DNA of 64,000 bases from positions 992,001 through 1,056,000 of the forward strand of contig CM069869.1 of the NCBI GenBank assembly GCA_036172665.1, in the 5' to 3' direction. This document shows, in pieces, positions 4,293 through 62,384 of the stretch; positions within the stretch are counted from its first letter, which is position 1, and every line of letters begins with the position of its first letter. This DNA is from Prosopocoilus inquinatus (taxonomy: Eukaryota; Arthropoda; Insecta; Coleoptera; Lucanidae). A program made the position numbers and the translations under genes. The notes below the pieces were generated by a model. It was given only the letters and a program-made list of their open reading frames with translations. It was not told the DNA's origin and did no database searches.

Positions 4293-4506
4293 TTAATGAA
4301 ATGAACATGATTTTTTTAAAACTAAAAATACGGCTGTTCAGTGAAACGTGAAGGTAATAAGTGTGTTCTTTTACAATATACATCGTGAATCAGAAATATC
4401 TCACCATTTATCTTCAAAGCTTTTATTAAACAAAACGAATCTGAGCAGAAATGATAAACACTAAATACTAAATTTTAAAAAAATTTTGTGCAAATCGTTT
4501 TTGATT

Positions 4507-4595
4507 GCAGTGAAAACCTCGAGCAGCCTCTGGACAGCTGTTTCAGCCCTGCTTGGGGCTTCTTCAGCAGAGACGTAGCTCGACATTCCCACTGC
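4507..4595 (-). ncRNA. Type I hammerhead ribozyme, family 1, copy R1
   Basis: On the minus strand: 5' stem I strand, CTGAAGA (complement of 4561-4567), stem II AGCCC/GGGCT with a 6 nt loop, GAAAC (complement of 4540-4544), minimal stem III around AGCT, GTC (complement of 4533-4535), then the 3' stem I strand. Predicted cleavage lies between 4533 and 4532. The 89 nt span matches the other complete copies. Just to the right (4608-4645) is the 3' end of another copy in the opposite orientation, and 4695-4795 carries the element's 5' module on the plus strand, so the locus is a rearranged head-to-head composite. Confidence 0.8.
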
Positions 4596-4607
4596 AAACG
4601 AAAAAAA

Positions 4608-4800
4608 GGTTTTCACTGCAATCAAAAACGATTTGCACAAAATGTTTCAAAAACTTTCATTATGCTTTGACAGCAAGCATGGCCGCCTTGCATGGGGGAC
4701 TTATTAGGAGCAAATCCCGCTTCAATTTGTCTACCCTACTGCAATGTCAGGTCAAAAAGCGATAGTAAGATGTCGTTATTTTATCTGTTCATCACTAAAT
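4608..4800 (+). repeat. Partial copies of the hammerhead-bearing repeat
   Basis: 4608-4645 repeats the 3' end of the family (ttttcactgcaatcaaaaac and onward). 4695-4795 repeats the 5' module (cctactgcaatgtcagg through attttatctgttcatca) that precedes the ribozyme at 12.1 and 31.8 kb. The segment ttattaggagcaaatccc here is the reverse complement of the spacer of the 31.7 kb palindrome. Confidence 0.75.
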
Positions 4801-5486
4801 TTTAACTATTTGTAGTTTGTTAAAAATACACTGCAGTTAAGCAAGTTTATCGAGTGGTCTAGTAAATAGAAGACCGATTTGATTTCCTTTTTAAACACAT
4901 CTCAGTTATTTTGTAAGATTCGGCATAATACAATCAAAACTAAAGCCTGCATCCATAGTACTTCCCTAAGGCTTTCTTAAATAAGGCACCATTTAGAATA
5001 GGTATTATAAGGCCGTAAACCAGAAGTATTATGAATACGGGCAGTAAGCTTCTTAGAAAAGTAAATAAATGATTTTAGCGAAGAAACTTAAATCAATGAA
5101 GAAGCTTAAGCTTTGGGTTTCTCTTCGGATAAATGTTCCTTTTGCTTCCTGCATTTTAACTTATTTTGCCTTTTAAAATCTTAATTACCTAGATTTCGGT
5201 GGAAAGTTATGGAAGGGTTTATTTTCCTCCGATTTTATTTTCACTCCTGTTTGTAGCTTCTCATTTATTTGTCCCTTCTTGATTTAAATGAATCTCTCTC
5301 AATCAATTCTGAATTTGTATCTACACTACCTCAGTAGTATAGATGGCTGAAGTGGTTTCAATCTTGAGGGTACACTTACTTCTCGCTTTTCTTTTTCGTA
5401 TTTCCTGATAAGTACCTACTCATTTTTTGAGAAATTTAATCTCTGCAGTATTAATTTTAATTATACAGAGTGCTGCATTGCTGAAC
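4801..5486. other. Non-coding region
   Basis: AT-rich sequence without recognisable genes or repeats. Confidence 0.5.
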
Positions 5487-6416: not shown

Positions 6417-6929
6417 TTTGAAATCCTTATCAGGCAGAATTTGGACACAGAGCTCTTGTTTGACAATCCATTATACTCTAGTAATTTACTCTTCTCTATC
6501 GTTTTCTACCCAAAGGAAACATTTAGAAATGAATGTCTTCGTGTCTCATTAGATCTTTGCCACACCACAATAATCTGTGGATAAAAGTATTGATTTTGTT
6601 GAAGAAGATACGAATCTACCGAATTATCGACGGCTTCTTCCAAACTGAACGATACTTGTCCGTTGTGAAAAAAGCTTTAAATATGAAAGAATTTAGAAAA
6701 AAGACAATTAATTAAAATTAATTTCTGTACACATACAATAAAATCGATTTTAAAATTTTTAAATTAATGTCGGTTCTTTGTTCATACGTTGTTATCCGTA
6801 TTCTTCGTCAAACTTCTTTTTGTTGCGGTCATACAGGTGGTCTCAACAACAGAACGTCCATCCTCTTTGCACTTTCGCTTGTAACGAGAAATTATTCTTA
6901 TCGTTGTTTTGCGAATTTTCATTTATATG
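6417..6929. other. Non-coding region left of the mariner nest
   Basis: Short frames only; nothing recognised. Confidence 0.45.
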
Positions 6930-7023
6930 AAAACAATAATTTATTATTGACCAAGTTTCCGCCTAAGTACGAGGTGATTTCGTAAAATTTTGCCCTATTC
7001 TGCAAACCGTTGGTTCAGTTATA

Positions 7024-8967: not shown

Positions 8968-9046
8968 TATTTAAATAAGGCAAAATTTTGCGTAGAAATC
9001 ACCTCGTACTCAGGCGGAAACTTGGTGAATAATAAATTATTGTTTT

Positions 9047-9949
9047 GATTGATATTACCGAAATTTTGAAGTACCTATTTTGTGGAATTTAGGCTACCGT
9101 CTTATCAATTTTATGCTGATTCTTGAAAGAAAAGAAAATTCTTGAGCACCCTCAGAGCTTTGAGTAGTTCTTGTGCGTCTTCTTTGGAAGGTTTCAAAAG
9201 TTTTTCACTCTTGATTCATGCGAAGAGAACATAACATCAGGTATTAAATCTTAATTTTTTTTTTTTTTTGCACTTGGCTTTATTCTTTGTTCTCGATTAC
9301 CTCGGATTCTGTTTTTTTGAGAGGGAAAATTTTTAATACGTATCTCGAATACTTTCCCAAAAATTTTGGCAAGTTTAGTCACACGGCCTACACTCTACGA
9401 GGCTCGTCGAACAATTACCATTCCCCCTCGATCCCGTCATCCCGAAATCAGATGGACTCTTTTCGCACTCATCTCGGATCATCTGTCCACCAGATAAGAT
9501 TTTCCGTCTATTATTTTTGCATTTAAGTCTGAAATTTATAATTAAATCATAACATAACTCACTTTAATAATTCAATTTTTTATTTTCATTAATTTAATTT
9601 TTCTTAATAACTTGATAATTATTTTTTCTTGTTGCGTGATGGTTATAAGTGGAATAACCAGAACTCACATTTTTTTGTAAGACACCCGGTATCCTCCTTA
9701 CCTTTCACCATGAATTTATGAATGATGAATGATAATTTATAAGAGAGATTGCTTAATACAGTACTCTTAACTCTTCCTAACCTATCCCACCCTTAAACTA
9801 ATTCTACTGATTCCCCTTAAATAAAATCTAAACCTTAATTTACTTAAATAAATAGAATGTCCTCGTGCACAAAGTTCCTTCATAATTTTTTATCCCTTGC
9901 TAATATCTTTTCTTCGTTCCATTCTCCGTCTCCTTCTTTATCAGAATTT
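9047..9949. other. Non-coding region
   Basis: Low-complexity T-rich sequence and short frames. No gene seen. Confidence 0.45.
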
Positions 9950-10900
9950 ATCCCACTATCTTATTCCATGGCTCCTGCGGTCTTCCTCTATCTTTTCCAT
10001 GTCCGCCTTGATTCCCACACTTGGTTTACCGGTCGATTGTCGTCCATCCTTTGAAGATGTCCCCACTAACTTAACTGTCGTCTTTCCACAAATTCTGATA
10101 CAGGTGTTCCAATTCTTCCCCTTTTTGTGCGCTACTCATTCGGTCTCTTAGCGTGACTCCTTTGACTTTCCTTAATTATTTCATTGCTGTGGTTTCTAGT
10201 CTTCGTTTCAAACGCCTGTTTAACGTCCACGTCTCACATCCGCATGTCATTATTGGCAAAGAAAAATATTGCCTTGCAAACATTCAATTTTGTTTTGCGT
10301 GTTATTCCTTTTTTTCCAGCTTTTTCTATACTTTCATTTATTCCTGTTTCTCGCCTTCCTTGTTCATCAAACCTAACTCCCAATTCCTGTACTTGTTCTA
10401 TTCGTCTCCTTTGAGTCTGTATGTTCGTCCTTCTTATGTTCTTTAGCTATTTTTGTCTTATCTGTGTTATTTCTCATTTTGTTTTGTGTTAGTATTTGAT
10501 CCCATATTGTTAGATTTGTTTGTAAGTCGTTTTAATTCTCTGCGAGCATCACCACGTCGGGTTGTCTGCGAAAGCGCATGTAGATGTAGAAATTGGTTAT
10601 AGATGCCTGTGTCTTACGTGTAGTTTGTTCTTTTCTCGTTGGCATTTCCTTTATTATGTCGTCCGTAAATATTATAAATAGGGCTGTACTTAAGGCCCCA
10701 CTCTTTCTTAGTCCATCTGATGATTGGAATTCCTTTGACAAACTGTTGTTACTAATGTCGTAGTTTATTGGATTTCTGTACAGATTTTGTATTACTTTCT
10801 CGCATGGTACACTGTTGAAAGCCTTTTGTAGATCGTTTTTGACTCTGGATTGATTTAGAATATTCGTGTCTGCAATTCAACTGCAGCATGTATATGTACT
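9950..10900 (-). pseudogene. Decayed non-LTR retrotransposon reverse transcriptase
   Basis: On the minus strand from about 10860, the frame reads NDLQKAFNSVPCEKVIQNLY (reverse-transcriptase palm motif, usual form DFxKAFDSV). It continues through EFQSSDGLRKSGALSTALFI (usual GLRQGCALSPxLF) and TDDIIKEM, to a broken catalytic box near 10550 where FADD is destroyed but VVMLAEN follows. Further on (10110-9960) fragments resemble the C-terminal region of such elements. Frameshifts and stops are numerous. This is a fossil of a Jockey/CR1/RTE-like element; the clade cannot be fixed by eye. Confidence 0.75.
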
Positions 10901-12074: not shown

Positions 12075-12110
12075 GTTACATCAAAAGCTACAAAAAAATA
12101 AAGGTCTTCC

Positions 12111-12335
12111 TACTGCAATGTCAGTTCTAAAAGCAATCGTAGCACGTCGCTATTTTATCTGTTCATCATTCTTACATCGCAATTGCGAATAAATTGGACA
12201 AGTCGTTTTTGGTTTGCAGTGGAAATCTCGAGCTACGTTTCCGCTGACGAAGCCCCAAACAGGACTGAAACAGCTGTACAAAGGCTGCTCGAGGTTTTCA
12301 CAGCAATCAAAACGATTTGCAACAAAATTTTTATT
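12111..12335 (+). repeat. Hammerhead-bearing repeat, copy 2 (nearly full)
   Basis: Starts at cctactgcaatgtcag, runs through the conserved 5' module and the ribozyme, and ends in tcaaaacgatttgcaac. It aligns end to end with 31752-31975. It carries no open reading frame of note. Confidence 0.8.
12216..12304 (+). ncRNA. Type I hammerhead ribozyme, family 1, copy R2 (GUA site)
   Basis: CTGACGA at 12244-12250, stem II AGCCC/GGACT with one mismatch, GAAA at 12267-12270, minimal stem III, then GTA as the cleavage triplet instead of GTC. Stem I strands 12216-12243 and the segment after the triplet pair over the same length as in R1, R3 and R4. GUA obeys the NUH rule, but with the stem II mismatch this copy may be weaker. 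Confidence 0.75.
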
Positions 12336-12972: not shown

Positions 12973-15900
12973 TGCACGGTCAGAAGAAACAAGAAGCAAA
13001 ACAAGAGATCAAGGAATTCGAATGCCCCCAAGGAGTAGGAAACGGAAACTTTGCAGATCCAGCGACATGCAGAAGGTTCTATCAGGTAAGAGAAAGTTAC
13101 GAGCGTTGCTATTTTTGACAAATGTGTGATGCAATTTCAGTGCGTAGACGGTTACCCTTATCTAAATAGGTGTCCATCAGGGTTATATTTTGACGACATA
13201 AGTAAATATTGCACTTTCAAGGACGAGGCGAGATGCGGGCCTATTGCTTCAAGTAAGAACGACTTGCTTTTTAAATGTATAGTAATCTGATGATCGCAAC
13301 TTCTTATAATTTTGCAGCACCAGCGCCCATTACAGAACCTCCCACAGATTTGGCGAAAAAATGCAACCTGGCAGAATGCGAATTACCCTACTGCTTCTGC
13401 TCCAAAGATGGTACGTTAATACCTGGTGGTCTAGATCCTGAAGATGTATGTGAATTACGAAACGTCCACCCGCCCCAAGCATCCTAACGTCCGGTCATTC
13501 TTCTTGCAGATCCCCCAGATGATTATAATGACGTTCGACGGTGCCGTGAATCTCAACAATTACGATCACTACATGAAGGTCTTCAATGGGAAGCGAAAGA
13601 ATCCGAACGGATGCCCCATCAAAGGCACGTTCTTCATTTCGCACGAGTACAGCAACTATCAGATGATACAGAAACTGGCCAGCGAAGGACACGAAATCGC
13701 AACCGAGACGATATCGTAAGATTTAACAATAGTTGTCGTAATTGCGTTCTCGTGTACTTTTACTTTTATCGCGATGTGTTCTTTTTACCACATTTCCTGT
13801 ACAAGATGATTGTTGGCGTTACGTAATGGTAAAAGTTTAAATTCAATGAAGCGCTTCCTCCCTGAGGTTACAGGACGTATGTGGTCATGTTACAAAACAT
13901 GCTAAAAGTTCATCTTGCGAGCAAAACAGCAACAGACAATATACATTAATAACCAAATATCGGATGAAAGTATGGAACTCAAATCAATCGGACTCCCATT
14001 AGGTACCTTGCGTTTGTTGCCGCGTATTCATCACATTAAGAGCCAGTTGTACCGATGAAGTTTAAACTGATCTTCAATTGAACCAGGCTTAAAGTAAACA
14101 AATTCACATAGAAACTTAAAGACATATGGCAATTACTGCCTTCATAAATCTGATGCGATTTTGTTCACTTTGAACTTGGTTTAGTTGAACTTGGCTTAAA
14201 ACAATTTGATAAAACTTGTCCTAATAACCCATCGCTCATGAATTGGCGGCGAGCGTGCACGTTGTATTCAAGAGACGAAGTAACCGTGAATATCCATACA
14301 AATGTCCCTAAGATTGTTAATAACTCACATAAATTATCCTCCCACAAGACAATTATGTAGAAAAGAGTTCATTTCGGAAACTTACGTAACGAAAAATTCA
14401 AAGAGGAGAGTATTTATTATAAGTTCTCACTTCACTCAATATATTTCAATCGCTTTATTCTCTAGTTTACAGCAAGGTCTTCAAGACAAGGGCTATGAAG
14501 AATGGGTGGGCGAAATGGTTGGCATGCGAGAAATCTTACAATATTTTTCGAATATATCAAAAAGCGAAGTCGTTGGCATGAGGGCGCCGTTTCTAAAACC
14601 TGGACGCAACACCCAGTATAAGGTATTAAAATAGAATCTGCTTGTTTCCCAGCTAGCAGAATGACGTCGGAATTACGTCATTTTTAGATTATTTTACGTC
14701 ATTTACGTCATTTGTCCCGAACGTCATTTACGTCAGTTGTCCCGAAAGTGACGTCAATATGACGAGTCGTACGACACGTATTAATAACGTCGATTATTAA
14801 CGTCGTAAAAGTGACGTCATTAACACGTCAATAAAAACATTTTTGGAACTGAACGAAAAGTGTAAATGAATATACTTTGAATATTGCTGAAGCCAGTTAT
14901 ACTACAATTAATATTGGAATTGTTAAATTAAAGAAAATAATAACATATATACAGTTGTGAATATAAAAACAAGATGGCGCAATTTTAGCACTTGGCAACT
15001 AATGCAACCTTAACGAAAATTTTGAAACGAACAACGCGATCACGACGAGGTCATCTCAAGTAATTCTCAACGACGTAGATAAGTTACTATGTATAAAGAA
15101 ATAACTTTTGTGATAAAATCATTTCACATTTTTATTCATTTGACGTTCAGCTTGTGAAAAATTTGAATGTATTTTGTATTTATTTAATATTTTCAGTGGC
15201 GGCTAGTCGGGGTGGGCAAGTTGGGCAGTGCCCACCTTGTCCTATGAAGTTACACGTTCCGGTTCCTCGTCCGGTCAACCCCGAAAAACAAATTTGTTTG
15301 AAAAATGCACCCACTTTCCGTTTTGCAGTTGCTGTCAATTCGCCGATTGTTTTTTGGTAAAAGGCGTTGAAAAGCTGACAAGAAGCTCTGTAAATAACCC
15401 ACTTAAATTGAATTCAAAAATTACAAGCGGAATCGCGAGGGGAGGGAGAGACGTTCATTTAATTGAACAAATAAAATACCCGTCGCTTTTGACTTTTGAT
15501 TGTAATCCAAAAATGCCTTCGTCGATTGTTTTTTGGTAAAAGGCGTTGGAAAGCCAAGAAGAAGCTCTGTAAATCCCCCGCTTAAATTTAATTCAAAAAT
15601 TACAAACGCGATCGCGAAGGGAGGGAGAGACGTTCAGTTAATTGAGCAAATAAAAAAAATGCGGCGCTTTTGAATTTTGATTGTAATTCGAGAACGCGTT
15701 CGTCGATTGTTTTTTTCTTTTGGTAAAAGGAGTTGGAAAGCTGTGAAAAGTTCAGCAAATCTCACACTTAAATTAAGTTCAAAAATTACAAGCCCCGAAA
15801 ACCTAATTTATTTATAATATGCACCCACTTTCCCTTTTGCAGCTGTTGTCCACCCTCAGTTAAATCAACACGCGCCGCCACTGAACACTTTGATTACATT

Positions 15901-17093
15901 GTCACATTTGCATAAAGAAGGCGCGGCTACGTTGAAACAAAAAAAAAAACCTACATAAATTTCGATGCTACAGGGGGGGCGAAACACGTTACTTCTTCAT
16001 CATTATGACGTCATTATGTCGTTTATTTACTCACAATTGACGCCAAATATACGTTATCTACACGACGTGTATATGACGTGATGTGGCTTGACTTATAAAG
16101 TGATTTTTAAGACGTCGCTCAGACGTCTTTTGGATGTTAGAATGACGACATTTTAACGATAAAGATTATAACACGTTACTCTGTTAGCTGGGTTGAAATC
16201 CCTTTTCTAAATTTGCTTAAGTTTGGCTGGCCTCAAACCAAAGTAAAACCGCGATCATTTTATTTTGAATATTCAAGGTGCTAGAAGATTTTGGATACAT
16301 TTACGACAGTTCCATTGGAGCCCCAGCTTTACCAGTGCCGATCTGGCCGTACACTTTAGACTACAAAATCCCCCACGAATGCAAGGCAGGGTCGTGTCCC
16401 ACGAAATCTTTTCCTGGTACAACAAAACATAATTTTATATAAAAGAAAAAAAATATAACTAAGAGTAATTATTTGCAGGTGTATGGGAGGTTCCTCTAAA
16501 CGCCCATTACGTGGAAGATTTCGAAGGTGGCCACTGCCCCTACTTAGACCAATGCGTTTTACATAACCACGACGCCGATGACGTTTTCGATTGGCTGCGA
16601 GAAGATTTCAGCAGGTATTACGACCAAAACAAGGCGCCCTATATGATGCCCTTCCACACGAATTGGTTTTCCATTAAAGTGCTCGAAGGAGGCCTTCACA
16701 AATTCTTGGACTGGGTCGAAACTTTGTAAGAGATTATTTTGACTTAATTTGATCGTTTAATCAGCCTGGAAAATATATGTGTGTAGACCGGACGTGTGGT
16801 TCGTGACGATAACGCAAACCTTGACGTGGATGACCGACCCCAAAACCCTCAAGGAAATAACGAAAAATTTCGAAGCCTGGGACTGCAAGAAGCGCGACAA
16901 TCTTCCGCCGCACGGTTGCAACAACCCCAACAAGTGCGCCCTCAATTTCAAAAAGCCCGACCTGAATTTCACCGACACGAGGTACTTGGAGACGTGCACG
17001 GAATGCCCCAATCAGTATCCTTGGTTGGGCGACGCCGAAGGATCGGGAATCCCCGGAAGAGACAATTATGTTCCTGACAACGTGAAAAAGTAG
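12973..17093 (+). CDS. Cda4: Chitin deacetylase, group III (Cda4-like), 8 exons, 5' end incomplete
   Basis: Exons: 12973-13085, 13141-13252, 13318-13445, 13510-13715, 14466-14622, 16278-16416, 16479-16725, 16787-17093 (TAG). All junctions are GT-AG and phases close, giving 469 codons. Domains: a CBM14 chitin-binding domain with its cysteines in the first two exons (FECPQGVGNGNF to EARCGP), a short linker, then a CE4 polysaccharide deacetylase domain. One chitin-binding domain, no LDLa and a short linker fit Cda4 rather than Cda1/2 or Cda5. Such proteins are secreted and modify chitin in cuticle or matrix. Motif 3 RAPFLKPG and motif 5 FHTNW are present. Motif 1 reads TFDGAVN instead of TFDD and motif 2 reads ETISL where HSxxH is expected, so metal binding looks altered. 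The signal peptide exon is missing or at 2725. Confidence 0.88.
13716..14465 (+). other. Intron 4 of the chitin deacetylase
   Basis: Non-coding, 750 bp, with a normal GTAAG donor and a TCTAG acceptor. No repeat recognised. Confidence 0.75.
14648..16192. mobile_element. DNA transposon rich in ACGTCA motifs, filling intron 5
   Basis: Terminal inverted repeats CCCAGCTAGCAGA (14648-14660) and TCTGTTAGCTGGG (16180-16192) match at 12 of 13. Both subterminal regions are packed with tgacgtca, ttacgtca and acgtcat motifs (14661-14830, 16000-16150). A second element (15194-15883) is nested inside. No transposase frame remains and no clear target duplication was found. Without it, intron 5 would be only about 110 bp. 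Confidence 0.7.
15194..15883. mobile_element. hAT-like MITE with internal 180 bp repeats, copy A
   Basis: Starts CAGTGGCGGCTAG and ends CGCGCCGCCACTG. The flanks aatatttt (15186-15193) and aacacttt (15884-15891) agree at 6 of 8, an eroded 8 bp duplication. The interior is a tandem array of ~180 bp units, marked by cgtcgattgttttttggtaa at 15341, 15520 and 15701. Each unit also contains gcgatcgcgaagggagggag or a variant. It lies inside 14648-16192, so it is younger than that element. Confidence 0.82.
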
Positions 17094-17216
17094 CGTGTCC
17101 GTACGTTTTTAGCCTTTTACGTTAAGAAGTTTTTAATTTTATGGCCAAATATACGCGAGGGGACGCCGCCTGTGTTCTCTTGCGAAACTTAAAAATTGTT
17201 AATAGAATTTATTTGT

Positions 17217-17222
17217 AATAAA
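17217..17222 (+). terminator. AATAAA poly(A) signal of the chitin deacetylase
   Basis: First AATAAA downstream of the stop at 17093, in a T-rich 3' region, giving a 3' UTR of roughly 140-150 nt. Confidence 0.5.
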
Positions 17223-17337
17223 TTATTTGTTTTACCTTAATCGGAAATTTTCTATTAAAAATATAACGTTTTGTTTTAAATGTCAATTAGCAAAATTCTT
17301 TATTTCTTTCTGTCTGTTGCTGCTTTAACATCTTCGC

Positions 17338-19075
17338 CAGGGCCGGCGGAAGGCGGTAAGCAAGGTAAGCAAGGGATGAGGGCGCCGCTGCAAAACGGAC
17401 GCCAAAATGTATATATTAAAAAACGAATAAAAAGCAGCTCGAACAATCTCAAGGTCAACCGCCAACCCCATCTAACAACTGAACTCAACTCTGTTTATCC
17501 AAAAAGTGACGAAAAATTAAAAATTAATTAAGATTAGTTCAACTAACGTCAAGGTCAATCTCGAACTAACTCCATTTAACACAAATAAAGATTAAATATT
17601 GCAAAAAAAATTAAAAGCATAAAAATTGTTAAAATAAATTAAAATAAAGCTCAGCCAGTCTCAATGTCAACATAGCCCAAGTTAGTTCTATTCAACTCGA
17701 GCAAAATTTAAAAATAATACTCCTATAAAAATTAAAAAAAAACTGTTAAATGCCTAACTTAATTTTTCTGTATTTTAGAATTGTCACTTGCAGCCATTTT
17801 GGTCGCTAGTCGCTTTAAGAAGTAAGCCAAACGGTTACCACGGTTTATCGCCCATTTGATGATTAATCGCTACCGTTGGCAACACTAGCTCTTCTTGTAA
17901 ATCTTCTTGTAAAATCACGTATATAATACGATATTTTGCTATGACCAGTGGCGGCTCGTCGGGGTGGGCAAGGTGCTCACCCTGTCCTATGAAGTTGCAC
18001 GATCCGGTTCCTCGTCCAGACAACCCCGAAAAACAAATTTGTTTGGAAAATCCACCAACTTTTCCTATTGCAGTTGTAGTCGATTCGTCAATTGTTTTTT
18101 TGGTAAAAGGCGTTGCAAAGCTGAGAAAAATTCTAGTAAATTCCGTGCCTAAATTTAATTCAAATATCACAAGCGCGATCGCGAAGGGAGGAAGAGACGT
18201 TAAGTTAATTGAGCCAATAAAAAACGTGTCGCTCTTGAATTTTCATTGTAACTCGAAAACGCGTTTATCGATTGTTTTTTGGTAAACGGCGTTGGAAAGC
18301 TGAGGAAAAGCTCTGTAAATCCCCCACTTAAATTGAATTCAAAAATTACAAACGCGATCGCGAGGAGAGGGAGAGACGACGATCAGTTAATTGTGCAAAT
18401 AAGAAACGCCTTGCTTTTGAATCTTGATTGTAACTCAAGAATGCGTTCGTCGATTGTTTTTTATGGTAAAAGGCTTTGGAAAGCCGAGAAGAAGCTCTGT
18501 AAATCCCTCACTTAAATTTAATTCAAAAATTATAAGCGCAATCGCGAGGGGATGGAGAGGCGTTCAGTTAATTGAGCAAAAACGCCTTGTCTTTGAATTT
18601 TGACTCAATCTCGAGAATGCGTTCGTCGATTGTTTTTTGGTGAAAGGCGTTGGAAAGCCAAGAAAAAGCTCTGTAGATCACCCGCTTAAATTTAATTAAA
18701 AAATTACAAGCGCGATCTCGAAGGGCGGGAGAGACGTTCAGTTAAATGGACAAATAAAAAACGCGGCGCTTTTGTAATTTGATTGTAACTCAAGGGCGCG
18801 TTCGCCGATTGTTTTTCCGTAAAAGGCGTTGGAAAGTTGAGAAAAAGCTCAGTAAATCACACGTTTCAATTTAGTTAAAAAATTAGAAGCCCGGAAAAAC
18901 AAATTTGCACCTAATTTCTCTTTTGCAATTGTCGCCCAACTGCAGTAAATCATCTCGAGCCGCCACTGCCTATGACGGTTACTTTTTTTAAGTTACGCGC
19001 GAATTTTGGTAGCAATCATTTAAACTAGTTCAAAGTTTAGCAAAAATTTGTCAAAATTAACGTAAATTTTGGATA
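17338..19075 (+). mobile_element. CAGGGCCGG-family transposon, copy A, interrupted
   Basis: The left end CAGGGCCGGCGGAAGGCGG at 17338 is shared in reverse with 32782. Interior blocks (acggtttatcgcccatttg near 17838; gcaatcatttaaact near 19012) match the 31.2-32.8 kb copy in inverted order, showing one element family. The 180 bp-repeat MITE copy B (17946-18968) splits it, so this element is older. The right end is not found; homology fades near 19070. Confidence 0.6.
17946..18968. mobile_element. hAT-like MITE with internal 180 bp repeats, copy B (expanded)
   Basis: Starts CAGTGGCGGCTCG and ends CGAGCCGCCACTG, perfect 13 bp inverted repeats. The flanks gctatgac (17938-17945) and cctatgac (18969-18976) agree at 7 of 8. 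The interior has five ~180 bp units marked by cgtcgattg variants at 18086, 18266, 18448, 18624 and 18803, against three in copy A. Two open frames (114 and 78 codons) in it are the repeat units read through, not genes. Confidence 0.88.
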
Positions 19076-23219: not shown

Positions 23220-26198
23220 TTACTCCCGCCGCGTCCTCTTCGGCCTCACGTTACTGCCGTCCGTGTCGTTTCTGCCTTTCTTTCCGACCTGAACCTGAGA
23301 CTGCGCCGTCAGGTGCAATGAGATTGCGTGAGTATTTAATTTTTCAGCCAGCAAGAGATCTTTCAGCTCCTTCATCTTTTGACTATGCAAAACTATCGTC
23401 GGCTTAACGTTCTCTGTGATCAGCGTCTCTTCCTCCTCTTCTTCTGCTTCGACCACCTGCTTTGAAGTACTCGGACTCGTACCGTTTGCCTTTTCAATCG
23501 TTTCTTCTCCGCCTTGAACAACAACAAAATCAAGTTGAGAATTAAATCCAATAAACTTCATAGACTACTCTGAGATAACATAATTTTTTTTACCTGTTAA
23601 TTGATAAGTATATCTGCTTGCTTCATTTTGCAAAAGTCCTCAACAAAATTAACCGTTCGGAAATCATGCAATTAACTGAGTGCGAAATAATCAACAAAAG
23701 TAAAACAATGCAATCGATAAAAAGATGCTATCTCTTCATAAGTACTGGATGAAAGCAAATGATAATTTAAAAGGTTTACAAAACTGCTGATGTGAAACTC
23801 TTCTTTGAATTGAACTTAATTTGAATGACGGTTTTTCTTGTCTAGCAAACAAAACTAAAATGATTACTGTTGGGGGGGGGTTAACCTGCCAACATAGATT
23901 GGAACGTCGATTACAGAGCAAAATTATATGAAAGTGATGTAAATAATCTGAATCACTTATACTTAAGAGTCACAAGTAGTTAGTATTTGAGTTAAAACTC
24001 AAAGTACTTTGTAACTATATTAACGAGTTGATGTGAACTCGTGAAATGTGCAAGTCAGAGGGATGTTGAACTTTGTGTAATTATTAATCACAAGGTGACT
24101 AAATAATGATAAACGTCACTGACTCACACAAACATATTTGACTGAAATCATACAATGTTGTTCATATTTAATTATTTAATTTAATTTAATAGAAAAAAGT
24201 TGTTCATAATTTAAAGTTGTAATATTATTGAAGACCCCTGCGACAATTTATGATTATTAATGAAGGATTTGCAAAGCTCATGAAGGAAGCGCTTAAAGTA
24301 ATTATTGGTGGATGTTTATTATAATTATGGCATGATGCATGATATGATAACAAACACAGATAACAGCCAAATCAATTTTTTTTTCCGCAACTTAAAAAAC
24401 TCACCGACAAACGGAGATCCCCCACCCTGCAGTAAATACTCGGGATTTAAAATTTTCTCCGAACATCCGGCCGTAAGGGCTTCAATACTGGGATGCAAAT
24501 TAGACGTAATCTCACTTTCGTCCTTGGAAACTTTACTCTGAAGCTCCTTGATGAGTCCGGTGGTTTTGGTGTGTTCTTCAGGCATGCAGTAATTATTGTT
24601 ATTGAAACAGCTGGCGTTACCGTTCGACCTCGGCGTTTTCCTATCGTCTGATTGTCCATTTTCAGTCTCGCAGACTATATTAACCTGAGCCCTGACGTCC
24701 GCGTCAAATTTTGAAATCGTATTGACGAGCGGCTTCGCCCAACCTATGTGAAGCACGGGCGTTGCGCTTCCTTCCTCCCACTGACAAATACCGTCATAAA
24801 ACCTTAGAAGGTAGGCGAAGCACTCCGGCTTCTTCAAAATGGAATTTGCGCTGAAACCCGAGCTCTCGACCTTCATAATGTGAGGAATCAGTTCATTTGC
24901 TATTTCTAAAAATTCTTTGTAGATCTCCTCATCGTCTCTTGAATAATTGTACCTGGAAAGTTAGGGTGCTGGATTGACGGTGAACATTTCTGAGGACGAC
25001 ACAAACTTACTGTCGGATTACGTCACTCGCGTTTGCCCAACTTTCAAACGCCTCTTTGTACATTTTATTGCGGTAAAAATAACCTCCCTGATAAGTGTAC
25101 GGATACACGTGTTGATTGTTATAATACGTTCTCGCTGATATTATAGCCTCTTGAAATAATGCACTGCAAGGTACTCTAAAACAAAAATATTTAAAATTAA
25201 CGACTCTTGAAACTTGAACGTCTCAATGATTAAGGTTTCAACTTTGTTTCTTTACATCTCATTAACTAATTAATTATGGCAAGCATTACTTTTACTATTA
25301 TTTTCAAAACGGAGCGCAAAAAATGAATTGTTAATAAATAAATCATAAGGCCTAACCTTCCGTTTGTGGGTGCAATTTCTTCTAAGTCACCCAAATTGCC
25401 TATTGCCATGGGATACTTTGACAAATGTCCTAAGTCATAAAGCAACCAAAGTAATTCCTGCTGTAAACAAGCAACTTCGCAGGCGTCTAGCGTTGCATTT
25501 AAAGACGGATTAATGGCTGATACTAAAGCTGCTACTTCCATAGCTCTTGTACATATTACAGGTTTGTTATTTACATATAGCCACGACCTGGCCGAAACAC
25601 CTTTACCAATTTCTTGTCCACGTTTATCTTCGTTCCCCTTCCCATGCCATGTAACTTCTGCAGTCTCTGTTCCGTTCTCCCCGAAAATAACCCAAGCATG
25701 ATCCTCAGACAGTGCCAAGTGCACGTCTGAAAAACCCAACGCCTGGCATCCAGCCACCACGGCGAACGCCACCCCGAAACAATCCAACTTGCTCCCGGTC
25801 AAGTAACTATACAGGCTCTGCAAGTGCGCCCTGTCTTTGTAATAGCTCCTCGTCAACGAATTCCAAACCACGTCGGACACCCTTTTCACAATGTCCCTCG
25901 TGCAGGCTTTCTTTTTACTGCCTGACACGTCGATCGCCCCCTTCATAATTGCGTGAAACTTACTGTACAAGGTCTCTACCGTGTGTAGTTCCAGTACTGG
26001 CAGACCTTTTGCCTCTACAACCTGTATCGTAACGTTCGACCGGCATGTTAACGAGTTTTCCACGGCGCCCGCCACTATCGAAAGTAAAGCCAAGTCGGGT
26101 TCGAATGCGCTCTCCAGCTGGTTCTTGAACAGTTCCACCACCGATGAAATGCTTTTTAACGGGAATAATGCTTTATCGGGATCACCAAAACCCGCCAT
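23220..26198 (-). CDS. Mnn1: Menin (MEN1 homologue), 4 coding exons, 615 aa
   Basis: Exons on the minus strand: 26198-25357, 25175-25011, 24952-24405, 23512-23220 (TAA). All junctions are GT-AG and total 616 codons with the stop, close to human menin (610 aa). Menin is a nuclear scaffold for MLL/trithorax histone methyltransferases and transcription factors. The start [14 protein letters not shown] is followed by the N-terminal domain and a transglutaminase-like thumb (DCFGVAF around 139-145, EDHAWV around 165-170). Then come TPR-like helices ([22 protein letters not shown]) and, near the end, TAQSQVQ and a basic tail PKRTRRE that suits a nuclear localisation signal. The region between about 390 and 520 is hydrophilic with an Asn run and is likely disordered. 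The gene is divergent from fem-1, with 1.3 kb between starts. Confidence 0.95.
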
Positions 26199-27516
26199 GT
26201 CGATACTTTACATTTTCTTCTGTCAACTGTCGAAATAAAGCGTCTTCTGTGTGTAACGTTTGGACTACGTTAGAAGGAACTACCGTACGAACGAGCTATT
26301 CATAGAAGATAAACGGTCTAAACATATTGCGCAATATTTTGAAGGATTTTATAATTGAATTTTAATTTAATTAGAAAATGCACAACTTCCTATAGGTCAG
26401 GCTTTAAGCTGATTATGCTTTTATAGTTTTTGTAATTTTAGAACCATCTTTTCGCTCCATCATTGGTTCCACTGGAAGCATGGGCGTTGCCAAACTATTT
26501 TTTAAACCCCGGCATATTTCAACAGCCACTTCTGTTTTAAATAATAAAATTATTAATACTATTAATCGTTAATAGACGTTTAAAAAGTGAGTTGTCTGTG
26601 TAAAATTTGTAATAACTGTTATTTTTTTTCGCTTAGAGTATCGTTGTTACCTGGGTGGATACGCCCATGCTCGTACTCATGTCATGAAATTGGCATAAAA
26701 CTATATCGTTTCTTGTTTATCTTAATGACAACTGTAGTTAAAAATGACTTGCAGCAACAAATATGAAAGACATGGAATCGTTTAAAGTGTGATTATCAAG
26801 GCCAATCCTCCCGAAAATCACAGAATAATGATTAAACCTGATTTATGCAGTGAGTTATTAGTATTTTTTAAGAAAATTTGCTTCTCGTTTTTATACCTGT
26901 CAATTTCTTAGTTTCGTTCCATTTTTCTTTTATTAAGTGTCACATCTTTCTAGATCCTTCATCTTTGCTTTGATATTATCAATTAGGTTTGTTCATTAAG
27001 CGTAATAAATCGACGTCGGGACTAGGAATCATGATGGAATAGTGTGAAATTAATCTTCAGGAAAATGCCACATTTCCAAAATAATCAAACTAATCGAATG
27101 CGGAGGATCTCAAAGACTGTAGATATCGAAAAACAGCTACAAAATTTTGCTTCCCTAAAAATATATAAAGAATACTTACGAATTAAGTGCGGGTTTATTT
27201 ATAAAATTAAACAGTATTTTCTGTGATTCAGGTCGTTCTACATAATGATTATTATTCACTTACAGATTTTATTATTGACTAATTCAGTAAATGACTGCAG
27301 GAAACTTTCAGCTGTCATCAATGTTTTGACATTGGCGCGAAATAGGGAATCAATATGGCGGCAAGTTAGCGGTACTTGGATAGATCAAGGAACTTTAGCA
27401 GTGCTTGTCTTTTACTGAGTTGGTAACACTGACTGTAACCTATTTTTACTCTTCACTCCCGCCGTTCAACATTTTGAAATACATATAAAAAATTCACAAA
27501 TGATATGTTTTGAAAA
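26199..27516. promoter_or_regulatory. Divergent intergenic region between menin and fem-1
   Basis: 1.3 kb separates the two start codons, so both promoters and 5' UTRs must lie here or in unseen 5' exons. A weak inverted pair agcatgggcgt / acgcccatgct (about 26477 and 26665) may mark a small MITE. No specific promoter element can be defended. Confidence 0.4.
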
Positions 27517-30500
27517 ATGAACAAGGACTCCTTGAGCTATAGAGCATATCACGCCGCCAAGGAGGGCAAGGCAATGACTTTATACGTTTTGCTCAGCAAT
27601 TTGGGCAATGCAAGAGCCAACAAAATAATTAACGAGGTAATTTTATTGAATTCTCACATTATACTTTTCTTGATGTGCCTAGTTATCCACACTCTCACAA
27701 ATTTAATCGATTCTATATAAATATGTAATCAAAACACCGACTTTGTTTAACAATTCCAGACTGTAGCTGAAGAATATGAAGGACAGTATACCCCGCTGAT
27801 GATCGCCGTGGAACGAGGTCGTGAAAGGGTTATTAAAATGTTGCTTTCGGAATTTGATCCGGACCTTGAAAAGGAAGGCATTGTTATTGATCAGCCCCGT
27901 TATGATGTGGAGACGGTCATCGAAGGCACAACTGCCTTATGGTGTGCTGCAAGAAGGGGGTATCTGAAAGGGGTCGAGTTACTGGTGGAAGCCGGGGCTG
28001 ATGTTAATCACGCAACGAGAACAAATTTAACCCCGCTGAGAATTGCTTGTAGGGACGGAAACTTAGATATTGTTAAATACCTCATAGATCATTCCACCAA
28101 TGTAAACACCACTGATACACACAATGGTACTTGCTTGATGGCCGCGGCAAAGAAAGGCCATCTACATGTGGTATAAACTTACCGAAGCTATTACTTTCGC
28201 TTAAGACTGTTATCGTTATTTCAGGTGAATTTGCTCTTAAAGCACAAGGCAGATCCCAACGTGCAAGCCCGCTTTGGTGCAACTGCGTTACATTATGCGG
28301 CCGAATATGGTCACTTATCTATTTTGAAGGCGCTGTTGAACTATAAGGCTAATTTTTCTGTTAATAGTTTTGGGATGACGCCGATCAAAGCCGCAGCTGA
28401 CAGTGCATATGAGGAAACTGTAGAGTATTTATTTAGTCGACCGGAAATTAGCGAAGAAGAAAAGATTGAAGCCCTTGAATTACTTGGGGCATCATATGCA
28501 AACGTCACACATATTTATTGTATGGAGAAGGCGTACAAATATTTACATCGGGCTATGAAGATGAGGTCAGGAAAAAATTCTTCTCTGTAGGGTGGGTCAT
28601 TAGCAGGGGAAAGAAATCAGCCCACCCGTTCCGCGAATAGTACGAAAATTTAGTATTCGGAATGTATTAGTCCCGTCTATAATAACTTCTGCGACATGCA
28701 AACACCCGCACCACATCCCTTCCCCTCCCACTCAATAAAAATTAGATGCATTGGAGCCACGGAAGGAGTGAATAGTACATTCGGCGTAAAAAGCGTCCAG
28801 CAATAAGTGGGCCGAATTCTTTTCCCTGGTCATTAGCAGTGTTGTGAGTTGCTAAAATTACCACGTTACCATACACTAAATTTCCAATGTTACCAGTAAG
28901 CAGTGTTGCCAAACGTTCAATAGAATATTCCTACACCACATTCCTAAAATTTCTCAAAATTCGTGGCACATGCAGTTGTATTTTTTTTTTTTTAAATTAG
29001 GACCAGTAAGTTGCTGGATCAATTCAAGTATCGTTCAGTTGGGAGGGTAAGGTTTTTCTTTTTTATTTGATATTATTTTAGTTCCATTTGTAGGTTACGT
29101 TCTCAACAAATCCCTGTTTTTTGACAACATAATTCGCTATTTTGGATCAATTAAAATATTGAAATGCTGATAATCTAGTGTTTTTGGACCAAGCCATAAC
29201 TGAAAAAAAAAAAAAATATGTCTGCACTTAAATTCGTCTGTTTTGTTCGTTATTTTTTAGATTTTGCCGTTATAACGAAAGGTGCAGGTATTAGCTATTC
29301 ACTTTCCTTTTAGATTCAGAGTAGGCCGCTGTTAGGGTGACATTTTTGTTGGTATCACAATGAAACATAAAGGTATTTTTCGCGACTAACCGATAAGTCA
29401 CGAAAATGCAGCGGTCATTTATTTCTCCTAACCACTCGTAACTGGTTAGTCGCGAAAAATCACTTATAGACGTCAAAAAATTGATTGAAGGTCATTTTTA
29501 ATTTTATGGTTATATTTTTGAAAACTACCACTGCCACTGTTGCCAGCTCGACTGAAGCAAGACCGAAGCATTCTGTTAAAACGAGAAGTATCGTCCCCAG
29601 CAAACAATTGATAATTTTTTATTTTTTAATTAAAGAAGTAATTACAAAAAAAATAGCAGGATCTTCTTGCTGTTGCTGATGACTAAGCATAGGATTTGAA
29701 TAAGTACACGCCATCGTTTCAGTAACGCCGTAAAAATGTATCGAACAGGCACATTGTGTAATGGGACGGTGAAAATAATTTACGGTGTTCTTACTATATG
29801 ATGCAATGTCGCTATAAATTCCGGCGGTCGAGGTACAACTGGTCAACTAATTACTCTGAAAATCTTTACAAAAATACAAAAAAAAATAAATTTACAAAAA
29901 TATAGCCAAACGTATTACCAAAAGTAGTCCAATTATACCAATCTCCGGAGTGTAAAAAAATATTACTCCTAAATTAATTGAAATATTAGCAGGAATAAAT
30001 GAGAAAAATTAAATTTTCTGTAATAATAAAAGAACATAAAATATGGTGGTCATAAAAAACAAAAACGAATCATTAACCCTACAGATGCAATTAATTTTAC
30101 AGTTGTCAAGGTGAACTATTCTTTTTCTTTTTGCTAAAAATAGGAACAGAAAATTGTGAACAAAGATAATACGAATTAGATAGACTAAAAAACAAAAAAA
30201 AAACAAAAACAAATAAAAAATCGCCGATTTGATATATTAAAAATCAAAACAAATGAAAACCAAATAAAATCAAAAAAAAACAAAGAAACAAAAGAGAAAT
30301 GCAGTAAAAACAGTAACAAAATACAAGGCACGAAGCGAAAATAAAGAAGATCGACATATTCGTAGAAAATAAAAGCAAACTGTAAGAATGTAAATACCTA
30401 ATTCGACAAAAATAAAAGAAAGAAAGTAGTAAAGTACGAAATACAGTTCGCAAAACAAAAAATCACAACTGTGATGGACCCAAAATAAATGAAAAAACAC

Positions 30501-33500
30501 TGAACTACGGGAAAGGGTTAATAAAAAAAAAAACGAAAACTCGAATCAATAGGATAAAAGGAAAGAGAAATCCGTAGTATGAAAGCATAAAGAACACAAA
30601 AAAAAACAAAAGAAAATTGATGACTAAGATGAACAAAACGCAAATGAATCTCCGGACGAAAAATTAAAAAAAAGAAACAAAAGCAAACTGTAAAAAAGCG
30701 TCAGTCAACAAAATAAGGTTAATTTGATAAAATGAATTTAAAAGAAAAAAACAGAAGTGAAATGAATCGTGGGAAATGTCAGCTGTTTACAAGACTTGAC
30801 CGAGAATTTTATCAAATCGAATTTTTTTCCAAATATTTGCCGAAAATAGTTTTTAATTGCAGTGGATGCCTCGAGAATCCTCTGTACAGCTGTTTCAGGT
30901 CAAAAAGCGATCGCAGGATGTCGCTACTTAAGCCCGAGTGATCTCTTGGGGACAACGGGACAACGTCTTCAAAAACGGTACAGTCCCATTGAAAATCGGA
31001 CGTATGGTCAGTTTATGTATATGTGAAAATAATTTGCTGATATAGAATTACTTCGTTAAAGGCGATAACTTTTATAGAAGACATTTTCTTCTATAATTAA
31101 TAATTAAGGCGCTATTGAAGAAATCGTTACCAATGACCCACCCTGTATAATTTCAAGAACACTGTACAGTTCACAGTTATCGGGGCCGGAGAAAGGTAGT
31201 CGGCGCCCTTATGCAAAACAGCGCCCTTTAAAAGAAAAGAAATAAATTCATGTGTATTTACGCAGTTGTCTCAAAAAATAGTGTAATTAGTAATTCCGTA
31301 ATTGCCAGTTTTTTTTTTAATTTTGCTGAATGTTTGCTTAACTTTGAACCAGTTTAAATGATTGCTAGCGAAATAAAATGGTAACTTAAAAAGTAACCAC
31401 CCTAAGAAAATTTCGCAATTTTAGAGTCAGGCAGTTTTGCCAACCGTGGCGATTTATTACCAAATGGGCGATAAACCGTAAAGCTCAATGAATTACTATA
31501 ATTTTCATCGGACAAGGTAGTGCTTCAATTATTCTTTTTTGTTTGGGGTGAATAGAATCGAGCTTAGTTGTTGGGTCGAATTTGGTTGACCTTGATATTG
31601 GTCGAACTTTATTGCTTTAATAGCTTTTCCTTTTTTTTACATTTTTTCTCTTTTAATTTTTTGAACAGATAAAATAGCGACATCTTACTATCGCTTTTGA
31701 CCTGACATTGCAGTAGGATAGACAAATTGAAGCGGGATTTGCTCCTAATAAGTCTATCCTACTGCAATGTCAGGTCAAAAAGCGATAGTAAGATGTCGCT
31801 ATTTTATCTGTTCATCATTCTTACATCGCAATTGCGAATAAATTGGGCAAGTCGTTTTTGGTCTGCGGTGGGAATGTCGAGCTACGTCTCTGCTGAAGAA
31901 GCCCCAAGCAGGGCTGAAACAGCTGTCCAGAGGCTGCTCGAGGTTTTCACTGCAATCAAAAACGATTTGCACAAAAAAAAATTTTTTTAAATTTTTTGCT
32001 TCAATTGAATACAGTTAGGTTGCGTTCAGTCGAGTTGGGTCGACCTTGAAATTTGTTGAGCTTGATTTTAACATTCGAGGATTCTACTCATGAGATTGTT
32101 GTTGTTTGCTGTTTTTGGGGTCACATTTTAAGGTTCCCTTGTTTTTTTTTTCTTTTTAAATGTTTGTAATGTTTCTTTTTCTTAACAAGCGACTCCACCG
32201 CTTGCATTCTGAGGGGGTGCGGACAGTGGCCACCTTGGACAGAGGCCACTCCGGGAGGATCGGGCCTCTCCGTTCTCGTGACACTCGGTGACCTCTACAG
32301 AGAAGATAAGCAGAAAGGGCTTCGCTCTGTTAGGGTCGCTCGCCTTGAGGGCTCGCGCCAGTTAGAGACTTGAAAAAAAGTGAAGGAAAATGTTTGAAAG
32401 AAATGAAGGAAAATGTTTAGAAAACTGAAGGAAAATGTTTAGAAAAAGTGAAGGAACATGTTTAAAAAGTTGAAAAACTAAAAAACTTTTCCCTAATGTT
32501 TTAATTTTAATTTTTTTCATTCTTTTCCCTTTTATTACTTTTATAAATTTTTCCCGATTTTTTAAATTGTTAACCGAATTAGCCACGTCGCATCGCCGCA
32601 TTAAATAGAGATCATTTGTTGGATCGGAAAGTAGAGTTGAGATCAGTTGTTGGAACGCGTTTGGTTGAGCTTTAGATAGTTCGAGCTGCTCGTTAATCGT
32701 TTTATAATTAACATATTTTGGCGCCCCTCTTGCATCTCCACCCCTGATGCCTTGCTTACCTAACCGCCTTCCGCCGGCCCTGCATACAATATTTAGCGGG
32801 TTGATAATTAATTACAGAACAGAATTGCGTGACCATCAAAAATTATTGTCACAAATTATTAACAGGAACAGGTACATGGGCTCAATTGATTTTACAAACT
32901 GCCTGATTAATTGTAAATAATTTAATAATTTTATCCAACACCTGTTTAATATGAAGTCATAATAATGCCGATTTTGAATAAACATAATATGAGGTCTATA
33001 TAACACTAGTGGAATTAAGAACCCATAGTTAAACTGTTATTCAAAATCGGCATTATTATGACTTCATAATAAACAGGTGTTGGATAAAACTATGTATTAC
33101 ACTCGTGCCTTAACAGTAAATAAGTCAGTCAAGAAAAATTAAACATTCCTTTCGTGATTTATTTGCCTTATAAGGGGCGTATTCTGTAATTTATTAACGG
33201 GCTGTTAAAATTTAGAGGTCCTTTAAAATTCAAAATACAGTTCTATGATTGGTTGTTACCGTAGCAACAAAATTAAATTTAACGCTTTTGATACTGAATA
33301 GGCCCCTAAGACACTTAGCTATACTTTAAATTTTTGTACAGGTATAGTGATCCCGATAATATAATAGAAAAGAAACTAATAAAACCAATCCCCGCTTACG
33401 AAAACTGGGTTGAATCTCAAAACCTAACGGAGCTTGAAGCTCTGGAATATGACCCAAACGGGCTGCACATGGAAGCCCTCACAATCCGTGAAAGAATCCT

Positions 33501-40985: not shown

Positions 40986-41900
40986 CAGGGTCGGAGCAGG
41001 GCAAGCAAGGCATGAGGACGTCGATTAAGAACGATTTAAGCGCAACTCGAACAATTTCAAGGTCAACCAAACTCGATCTAACAAATGGAAAATTATTTTG
41101 GTTTTCCAAAATATTCAACATCCGCTCAAGCCAACTGAACCCGACTTAACTCCATTCGACACAAGGGATGAATTAAGAAAAGGAAATATTACAGAAATTA
41201 AAATCAAAAAATAAAGCTCAACAAATTCCAAGGTCAACCCTGAATTCAACCTAACTGTATTCAATTGAGGCAAAAAATTTTAAATGCAAAAAATGAAAAG
41301 TAAAAAATTAAAAAGAACAGAACGATTAAAACAAGTAAAATAGCGACATCTTACTATCGCTTTTTGACCTAACATTGCAATTGCGAATAAATTGGGCAAG
41401 TCGTTTTTGGTCTGCAGTGGGAATGTTGAGCTACGTTTCTGCTGAAGAAGCCCCAAGCAGGGCTGAAACAGCTGTCCAGAGGCTGCTCGAGGTTCTCACT
41501 GCAATCAAAAACGATTTGCACAAAATTTTTCTAAAAGATTAAAACAAGCTTCTACCATTGTCAAGGTCAAGCAAACTCGACCCAACAACTGAACTCCATT
41601 CTGTTCAACCCTAGCAAACAAGTTTAAATAAAAAAATTAAAAAATGACGTTAATAAATAAGTGAAAAAGAAATTTCGACGTCAATCTAACCAAATAAGTC
41701 CAATCCAAGCATAAAAACATTAATGCAAATTAAAATGAACCTCAGCAAATCTCAAGGTCAACTGAATAAATTACTAATAAAAGAACCATATTCTTTTATA
41801 ACTTCGGATTTACGGCCTATCAATAAAAAGTAGAGATTAGTTTTGTTTTTTGTCAAGCCAAGCAAGAATAAAAATAAAAATAAAAAACTAAAAAAAAAAT
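40986..41900 (+). mobile_element. CAGGGYCGG-family fragment, copy C, with nested hammerhead repeat
   Basis: Begins CAGGGTCGGAGCAGGGCAAG at 40986. The filler (caaggtcaacc, aactcgatctaacaa, caactgaactccattctgtt) recurs in copies A and B. Right end not defined. Confidence 0.4.
41414..41502 (+). ncRNA. Type I hammerhead ribozyme, family 1, copy R4
   Basis: CTGAAGA 41442-41448, stem II AGCCC/GGGCT, GAAA 41465-41468, stem III closed by A-T and C-G around AGCT, GTC 41474-41476. The flanking stem I strands pair over the same 89 nt span, with one change (gttgagc for gtcgagc) that leaves a G-T pair. The 5' module upstream (41340-41385) is inverted relative to copies 2 and 3. Confidence 0.85.
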
Positions 41901-62364: not shown

Positions 62365-62384
62365 AATTCATTAAACGTGGCTTT

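Follow-up and report, generated by a model that had tools for sequence, protein, structure and literature searches.

The window, the whole stretch of 64,000 nucleotides at positions 992,001 to 1,056,000 of contig CM069869.1 of Prosopocoilus inquinatus, contains five loci (R1 to R5) of a dispersed repeat that, judged from its sequence, is a mobile, non-coding animal retrozyme of the kind without long terminal repeats (non-LTR). This assignment was made because the repeat forms a 312-bp array, occurs as dispersed copies, shows covariation in its stems and is accompanied by target duplications; an initial annotation that had proposed a dispersed mobile repeat of this type was thereby upheld, and all five loci were found where it had placed them. 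The assembly that contains the window comprises 649.6 Mb in 173 contigs. Protein similarity places the host among beetles, the closest named relatives of an LRR-Ig protein encoded at 60901-62367 being from scarab beetles (Popillia, 60%; Oryctes, 59%). Loci and stretches read elsewhere in the genome carry L numbers.

R3 (31664..31989, plus strand) is a two-piece insertion between exact 9-bp repeats, AATTTTTTG, at 31655-31663 and 31990-31998. On a 312-nt unit that is numbered from the hammerhead cleavage site, its inverted piece (31662-31754) covers positions 106-199 and its sense piece (31752-31997) runs from 137 to 65 through the hammerhead. The hammerhead domain (31847..31970, plus strand) is made up of stem I (31847-31892 with 31928-31970, 39 pairs), stem II (31900-31904 with 31911-31915) and a stem III formed by the palindrome ACAGCTGT at 31919-31926. 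The catalytic core extends on the plus strand from CTGAAGA to GTC (31893..31927), with predicted cleavage after C31927.

Two further loci have the same two-piece form and exact 12-bp target duplications. R4 (41336..41536, plus strand) lies between copies of GATTAAAACAAG at 41324-41335 and 41537-41548 and consists of an inverted piece (41330-41379) and a sense piece (41369-41536, core 41442-41476). R1 (4479..4793, minus strand) is flanked by duplications at 4467-4478 and 4794-4805 (TTAAAATTTAGT, minus strand) and joins a hammerhead piece (4472-4605, minus; core 4533-4567) to an opposite piece (4607-4794, plus). R2 (12104..12332, plus strand) is a one-piece insertion that runs from unit position 137 to 54, with its core at 12244-12278 and damage to stems I and II. 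R5 (30825..30929, minus strand), which had been described as a plain truncation, was shown by unit mapping to be an old two-piece insertion in which the 3' half of the hammerhead, all that is left of it (30825-30898, minus), is joined to a 33-nt opposite piece (30897-30929). Target duplications were looked for at R2 and R5 and none was found. The earlier size of about 225 bp for the element was also replaced, since the unit is 312 nt and the insertions in the window span 105-336 bp. In R1, R3, R4 and R5 the second piece, in opposite orientation, accounts for much of what lies upstream of the ribozyme. Mapping on the 312-nt unit ruled out the upstream halves of R1 and R3 as snap-back artefacts of single copies, and likewise stem I as a product of the inversion.

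Over an 89-nt unit, 13 columns were variable among R1-R4; R3 differed from R1 at one position and from R4 at four, R1 and R4 differed at three, and R2 differed from the others at 10-11. It is established which positions of a hammerhead core are fixed and which are free. Both free positions, N7 and H17, varied in these copies, and none of the 11 fixed positions did (P 0.004 for random placement); R1 and R3 had identical 35-nt cores. A generic descriptor (CUGANGA, stem II, GAAA, stem III, UH, stem I) matched R1, R3 and R4 only in the window, compared with 0.007 sites on average when the window was dinucleotide-shuffled 150 times. The Rfam Hammerhead_1 model aligned end to end with R3 (25.8 bits, E 1.4e-4 for 161 nt) and completely with R4 (23.8 bits), both below the gathering score of 34, and whole-window Rfam scans reported no hammerhead. 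R2 was missed by the descriptor, and a scan of it with Rfam reported no hammerhead; it has two C-A mismatches in stem I beside the core and one in stem II. On sequence grounds, the type I hammerhead core is complete in R1, R3 and R4. The initial annotation had claimed four loci with every hammerhead part and a compensated stem I; the complete core held for these three, and in R2 the core has been kept and the stems are broken. Rfam matches to microRNA precursors were rejected; a mir-5928 match at 31698-31776 sits in the near-perfect palindrome formed by the two pieces of R3. Viral and prokaryote contigs were scanned for exact patterns and gave no match.

In all of R1-R4 a single reading frame stays open through the hammerhead (31850-31970 in the window and homologous places), as would be the case if the conserved region were a coding segment of an unknown protein and the hammerhead match incidental. 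A search with the R4 frame among approximately 5.8 billion proteins returned no candidate sharing three words, and nothing in this frame rose above a Pfam cut-off. Synonymous changes between R3 and R2 numbered 6 of 13 (P 0.13), an excess that was not significant. With no homologue and no significant coding signal, the protein-coding reading, which we regard as extremely unlikely, was rejected; that the element has no protein had been claimed from the start.

The hammerhead stands at the tip of the 39-pair stem I, which has an internal loop; loop II is of 6 nt, and stems I-III total 46 pairs. R3 and R4 each have 40 Watson-Crick and six G-U pairs and no A-C, and R1 has 28 Watson-Crick, four G-U, no A-C, one other and 13 missing pairs. 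In the decayed R2 these numbers are 35 Watson-Crick, five G-U, four A-C, one other and one gap. The stem comparison confirmed that a C-to-T change in R4 yields a G-U pair, as first noted. Because the arm differences of the intact copies are G-U and not A-C, the ribozyme strand of R3 folds better (-72.2 kcal/mol) than the opposite strand (-48.1), and the constraint seems to be on RNA rather than DNA. Over 27 distinct sequences this asymmetry was weaker, the single changes comprising 13 G-U kinds and nine A-C kinds (each in 1-2 sequences).

A better test of RNA constraint than the G-U/A-C asymmetry is covariation. The alignment for stems and core used 39 of 45 matches, giving the 27 distinct sequences; L006 (the same as L005), two further array units, the edge-cut L032 and L033 and the antisense match L042 were omitted. 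In this alignment 96.4% of cells were paired and seven of the 46 pairs were altered on both sides, compared with a mean of 1.8 in shuffles that were uncorrected for kinship among rows mostly of one subfamily. None of the 500 shuffles reached seven, and slid partners gave at most three. In the same set the core appeared more conserved than the rest (P 0.0002, or 0.022 without three rows that came from the hammerhead search itself).

Stem III is the palindrome ACAGCUGU, which is too short for a stable hairpin. When two strands were co-folded the predicted energy was -148.3, compared with 2 x -72.2, and the fold was a double hammerhead with an 8-bp stem III. Passages of PMC6155905 and PMC7761336 describe dimeric action for type I hammerheads with a weak stem III. 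The beetle ribozyme resembles the minimal, dispersed type I hammerheads of Penelope-like elements (PLEs) that act as dimers, as they are portrayed in parts of PMC7761336, in its weak palindromic stem III and in its predicted dimer, a double hammerhead. It differs from them in that its stem I is complete, with about 40 pairs and an internal loop.

A genome search with R4 as query, in which 40 of 940 candidates were scored, led to a tandem array. Over the 4.3 kb read, a 312-bp unit was repeated 13.1 times with 99% matches, and since the array runs to the end of the stretch there are at least 13 units and there may be more. The array holds 13 complete hammerheads spaced 312 nt apart, with one step of 313, and the GC content of the unit is 0.43. 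Twenty-four stretches of 10 kb were picked blind at round-number positions; 5 kb of the first 200 kb was N. These approximately 235 kb contained 12 insertions, or about 50 per Mb, which corresponds to perhaps 30,000 dispersed copies in 650 Mb.

Copies were mapped on the unit by BLAST (E ≤0.01), and pieces no more than 150 bp apart were merged into one insertion. Seventeen insertions were mapped, five in the window and 12 in the position-sampled stretches. A weaker profile match, L012:4338-4406, was under the mapping threshold and was excluded from the count, and the mapping did not cover diverged subfamilies. Eleven insertions consisted of two pieces in opposite orientation and six of one piece (R2, L010, L011, L013 and two in L022). 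The 3' end of each resolved piece lay at one of two places in the unit, E1 (54-69) or E2 (189-204), and the 5' end could lie anywhere; the 3' ends of two-piece insertions point outward, that is, the pieces stand head to head. Resolved 3' ends numbered 27 of 28, with 13 at E1, 14 at E2 and none elsewhere; the other was in L018, where BLAST stops at unit position 10. All ten two-piece insertions with both ends resolved paired one E1 with one E2, and the junctions between pieces varied. In the predicted circular fold of the unit, the mean unpaired probability was 0.70 at E1 and 0.68 at E2, compared with 0.29 elsewhere.

A second set of 20 loci was fetched around R4 matches; it is biased, since the query contains both pieces. 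Six of these loci were clipped by the edge of the stretch (L030, L032, L033, L046, L047 and L048), and 12 of the 14 uncut loci ended at E1 and E2 (there 49-65 and 190-207).

The outer arms resemble terminal inverted repeats, as do the two-piece copies, and a mariner-type element is also present in the window. The repeat might on that account be a DNA hairpin or foldback element, a miniature inverted-repeat transposable element with long inverted repeats, whose hammerhead is an accident of sequence. The outer ends E1 and E2 are different unit positions, however, and not inverted copies of each other, and among intact copies the arm differences are biased towards G-U for just one of the strands. 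By chance, moreover, 0.007 hammerheads would be expected per window with the generic descriptor, and tandem multimers exist. The foldback reading was rejected on the arm differences and the unlike outer ends, and we consider it very unlikely.

About half of the copies had target duplications. With L053 left out, so that 16 of the 17 insertions in the window and position-sampled sets were covered, duplications of at least 9 bp were found in 8 of 16 insertions compared with 126 of 1500 random places. Duplications of at least 12 bp were found in 4 of 16, one of which (L027) was well off the expected place, compared with 78 of 1500. In an earlier and wider control, 43 of 4000 random pairs of stretches had at least 12 bp. 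The 20 R4-like loci had duplications of 11-13 bp in ten cases and 7-9 bp in three, and none was found in seven, six of which were edge-cut. Some pieces were longer than one 312-nt unit (L003, 373 nt; L016, 323; L046, 423; L048, 390; L049, 403; L055, 321). Such pieces imply a circular or multimeric template, as a single linear monomer cannot yield them.

Metazoan non-LTR retrozymes are described in sections of PMC7229834 (Cervera and de la Pena 2020) as tandem arrays of short, GC-poor units that carry a type I hammerhead and encode no protein. The beetle repeat agrees with that account in its type I hammerhead, units of a few hundred bp, GC content below 50% and lack of a protein or homologous open reading frame (ORF), and also in target duplications longer than 4 bp when present and a highly self-paired predicted circle. 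Its 312-bp tandem units, with 13 hammerheads, fall within the 150-450 bp range given for tandem units that each carry such a ribozyme. It is unlike those retrozymes in that its copies are mostly dispersed as one or two pieces, the two-piece ones being head to head with two fixed ends. It may also be likened, by description only, to Sm-alpha of Schistosoma, which appears in parts of PMC6155905 as a short non-coding, non-autonomous retroelement with a type I hammerhead.

The same insertion architecture was found in a PLE of the same genome which, together with the 312-bp array, supports the likeness to retrozymes or Penelope-associated hammerheads that had been suggested initially. This element is abundant in the genome. 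The copy L059 (449-2812, minus strand) has an open frame of 788 amino acids with RVT_1 and GIY-YIG domains between two direct pseudo-LTRs (pLTRs). The retrozyme lacks the ORF with a reverse transcriptase and GIY-YIG that a PLE should have; the separate, autonomous L059 has both. A genome search for GIY-YIG, in which 150 of 2232 candidates were scored, gave 48 neighbouring pairs within 12 kb. In 47 of these 48 the minus copy came before the plus copy, a head-to-head order in which the 3' ends point away from each other; one pair was minus-minus and none was plus-minus. Six head-to-head inserts were read, the best match L054 and five picked for shortness (L056, L057, L058, L060 and L061). All six had a 38-nt tail at one end and a tail-less other end, with duplications of 12-15 bp in the five computed inserts and of 13 bp, by eye, in L054. 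Parts of PMC3846280 report inverted pLTRs, an optional tail and head-to-head inserts in PLEs.

In both L059 pLTRs, a core-like CTGAAGA...GAAA with the palindrome ATACGTAT was observed (reverse-complement positions 373 and 2978), and it is a candidate only; Rfam was silent on the same ATACGTAT-type hammerhead-like string in L056.

Some inserts, L056 among them, are near-perfect palindromes, and palindromic head-to-head Penelope inserts are read in a passage of PMC3846280 as the outcome of self-priming on an antisense template. The head-to-head form could by that account come from one priming event, if the copying of a single template turns back on itself. Folding back predicts outer ends that are mirror images, whereas the ends seen differ from each other, falling at E1 and E2 or being long on one side and short on the other, and the junctions between pieces were variable. 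We consider self-priming an improbable source of these insertions.

The possibility was also considered that the retrozyme has an active hammerhead and a circular RNA but is moved by a long interspersed nuclear element (LINE), the inverted pieces then being due to ordinary twin priming whose second start prefers an AU-rich stretch. LINEs, too, are associated with 5' inversion and with target duplications of about 12 bp, and the window contains an RVT_1 fragment (10532-10876, minus strand; below the cut-off) that by eye is LINE-like and not Penelope-like. Twin priming, however, gives variable inner start points on one RNA, and here 27 of the 28 piece ends were at two sites, the other being the one in L018, with one of each in every fully resolved pair. 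The PLE also obeys the same rule of one long and one short end. Movement by a LINE is therefore judged unlikely.

Taken together, the two elements are most simply explained by a single enzyme for which both strands serve as primers, with one of two RNA sites used by each, and since the retrozyme follows the same rule as the PLE, the data suggest that the same enzyme moves it. In sections of PMC11167929, a Penelope-like protein in purified form is reported to cut both strands, to extend them and to initiate at two neighbouring sites inside the RNA. Mobilisation of retrozymes by a Penelope-type enzyme was proposed from co-occurrence in a passage of PMC7229834. The repeat is thus probably a non-autonomous retrozyme mobilised by a Penelope-like enzyme through two-site, two-strand priming. 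Multimeric transcripts of the 312-nt unit would cut themselves at the hammerhead with its palindromic stem III, probably as a double hammerhead, and the monomers would be ligated to a highly self-paired 312-nt circle. The enzyme would make cuts in the two strands of AT-rich DNA, some 12 bp from each other, and reverse transcription would be primed from both DNA strands, starting at two fixed, largely unpaired, AU-rich sites of the circle, E1 for one strand and E2 for the other. Where the two DNA copies met head to head, a two-piece insertion with a target duplication would be left, and running round the circle would give tandem copies. The cleavage of the RNA, the RNA circles and the identity of the copying enzyme are the steps that we infer.

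Several results weigh against this reading. The retrozyme and the PLE have little 3' sequence in common; a shared 3' sequence was considered and rejected as weak, with 52 of 2000 shuffles as good. The Rfam scan of the pLTR of L056 reported no hammerhead. The minimum-energy fold of the monomer is not the hammerhead (-72.2 compared with -61.6), so a lone copy may, on these predicted energies, cleave poorly. In nine window and position-sampled sequences the core was not significantly better conserved than the rest, with 4 of 99 core cells changed compared with 58 of 954 (P 0.51); all four core changes were in two old copies, L012 and L013. A related copy in L003, which is above the Rfam cut-off, carries G at the cleavage position and is predicted for that reason to be dead. 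Among the insertion ends there is one clear exception, L042 (17-414), which lacks a duplication and has its outer ends at unit 204 (E2) and 245. The BLAST ends of L041 are at unit 104 and E2; by eye only, the 21 nt past unit 104 resemble an E1 end and reach the 13-bp duplication of that locus. The inner junction of R4 (about unit 148/205), which by eye sits at the short shared word ACATYGCA, recurs in L031, L034-L038 and L041-L043, and several loci that share it have different target duplications. This junction may have formed repeatedly, or composite copies may have been transcribed and moved as such, and the two-piece structure may thus be partly copied rather than made anew.

The beetle insertions resemble PLEs with inverted pLTRs and a tail, as described in portions of PMC3846280 and PMC11167929, in being head to head, with one outer end long and the other short, in target duplications of about 8-15 bp and, by eye, in AT-rich targets. 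They are unlike PLEs in that the retrozyme lacks an ORF and carries a complete hammerhead whose stem I is long, and in the distance between start sites, about 140 nt compared with 38. Retrozymes are already known as a kind; the two-site, head-to-head insertion rule appears to be new. No report of this rule in a retrozyme was found in open-licence literature on retrozymes with inversions, target duplications or beetles. The main text of PMC7229834 contains neither 'inverted' nor 'head-to-head', and 'inverted' occurs in PMC7761336 in a reference only. Passages of these two papers state the copying enzyme and template of animal retrozymes as a hypothesis. This genome supplies a concrete candidate pair, a retrozyme and a PLE that share an unusual form of insertion and have predicted start sites, and makes mobilisation testable with one purified protein and one RNA. 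Two start sites, one per strand, are also a possible reason for the Penelope-like tail being on one end only.

For animal retrozymes broadly, we lean somewhat towards a single scheme of mobilisation by Penelope-like enzymes, in which one circular RNA offers two start sites, one for each strand of a staggered cut, and the two DNA products are joined head to head. The same one-long, one-short rule in the autonomous element would then mean that the rule reports the enzyme. If this is true, the genome record could be read as thousands of natural insertion experiments.

Diverged hammerhead subfamilies of the GCTGAAGAGGTCCCAAATAG..CCGAAAC type are dispersed in the same genome (L001:1463-1542, L002:1499-1582, L004:1503-1585, L005:1497-1544 and L007:1496-1596), and all five were above the Rfam cut-off. 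By eye, a tail like ACTGCAATCGAAACTGACTTGCAACTA is clearly common to the retrozyme and these hammerheads, with the exception of L005.

Elsewhere in the window, an inverted-repeat element of mariner/Tc type (6927-9049) surrounds a transposase-like frame (7673-8524; HTH_Tnp_Tc3_2, below the cut-off). Exons of a menin gene lie at 24325-26207 on the minus strand, and an ankyrin-repeat gene, fem-1-like by eye, lies at 27751-28590 on the plus strand. A tandem repeat of approximately 180 bp occurs at 15350-18915 in two blocks (15.4-15.8 kb and 18.1-18.9 kb), and another, of approximately 215 bp, occupies positions 1-703.

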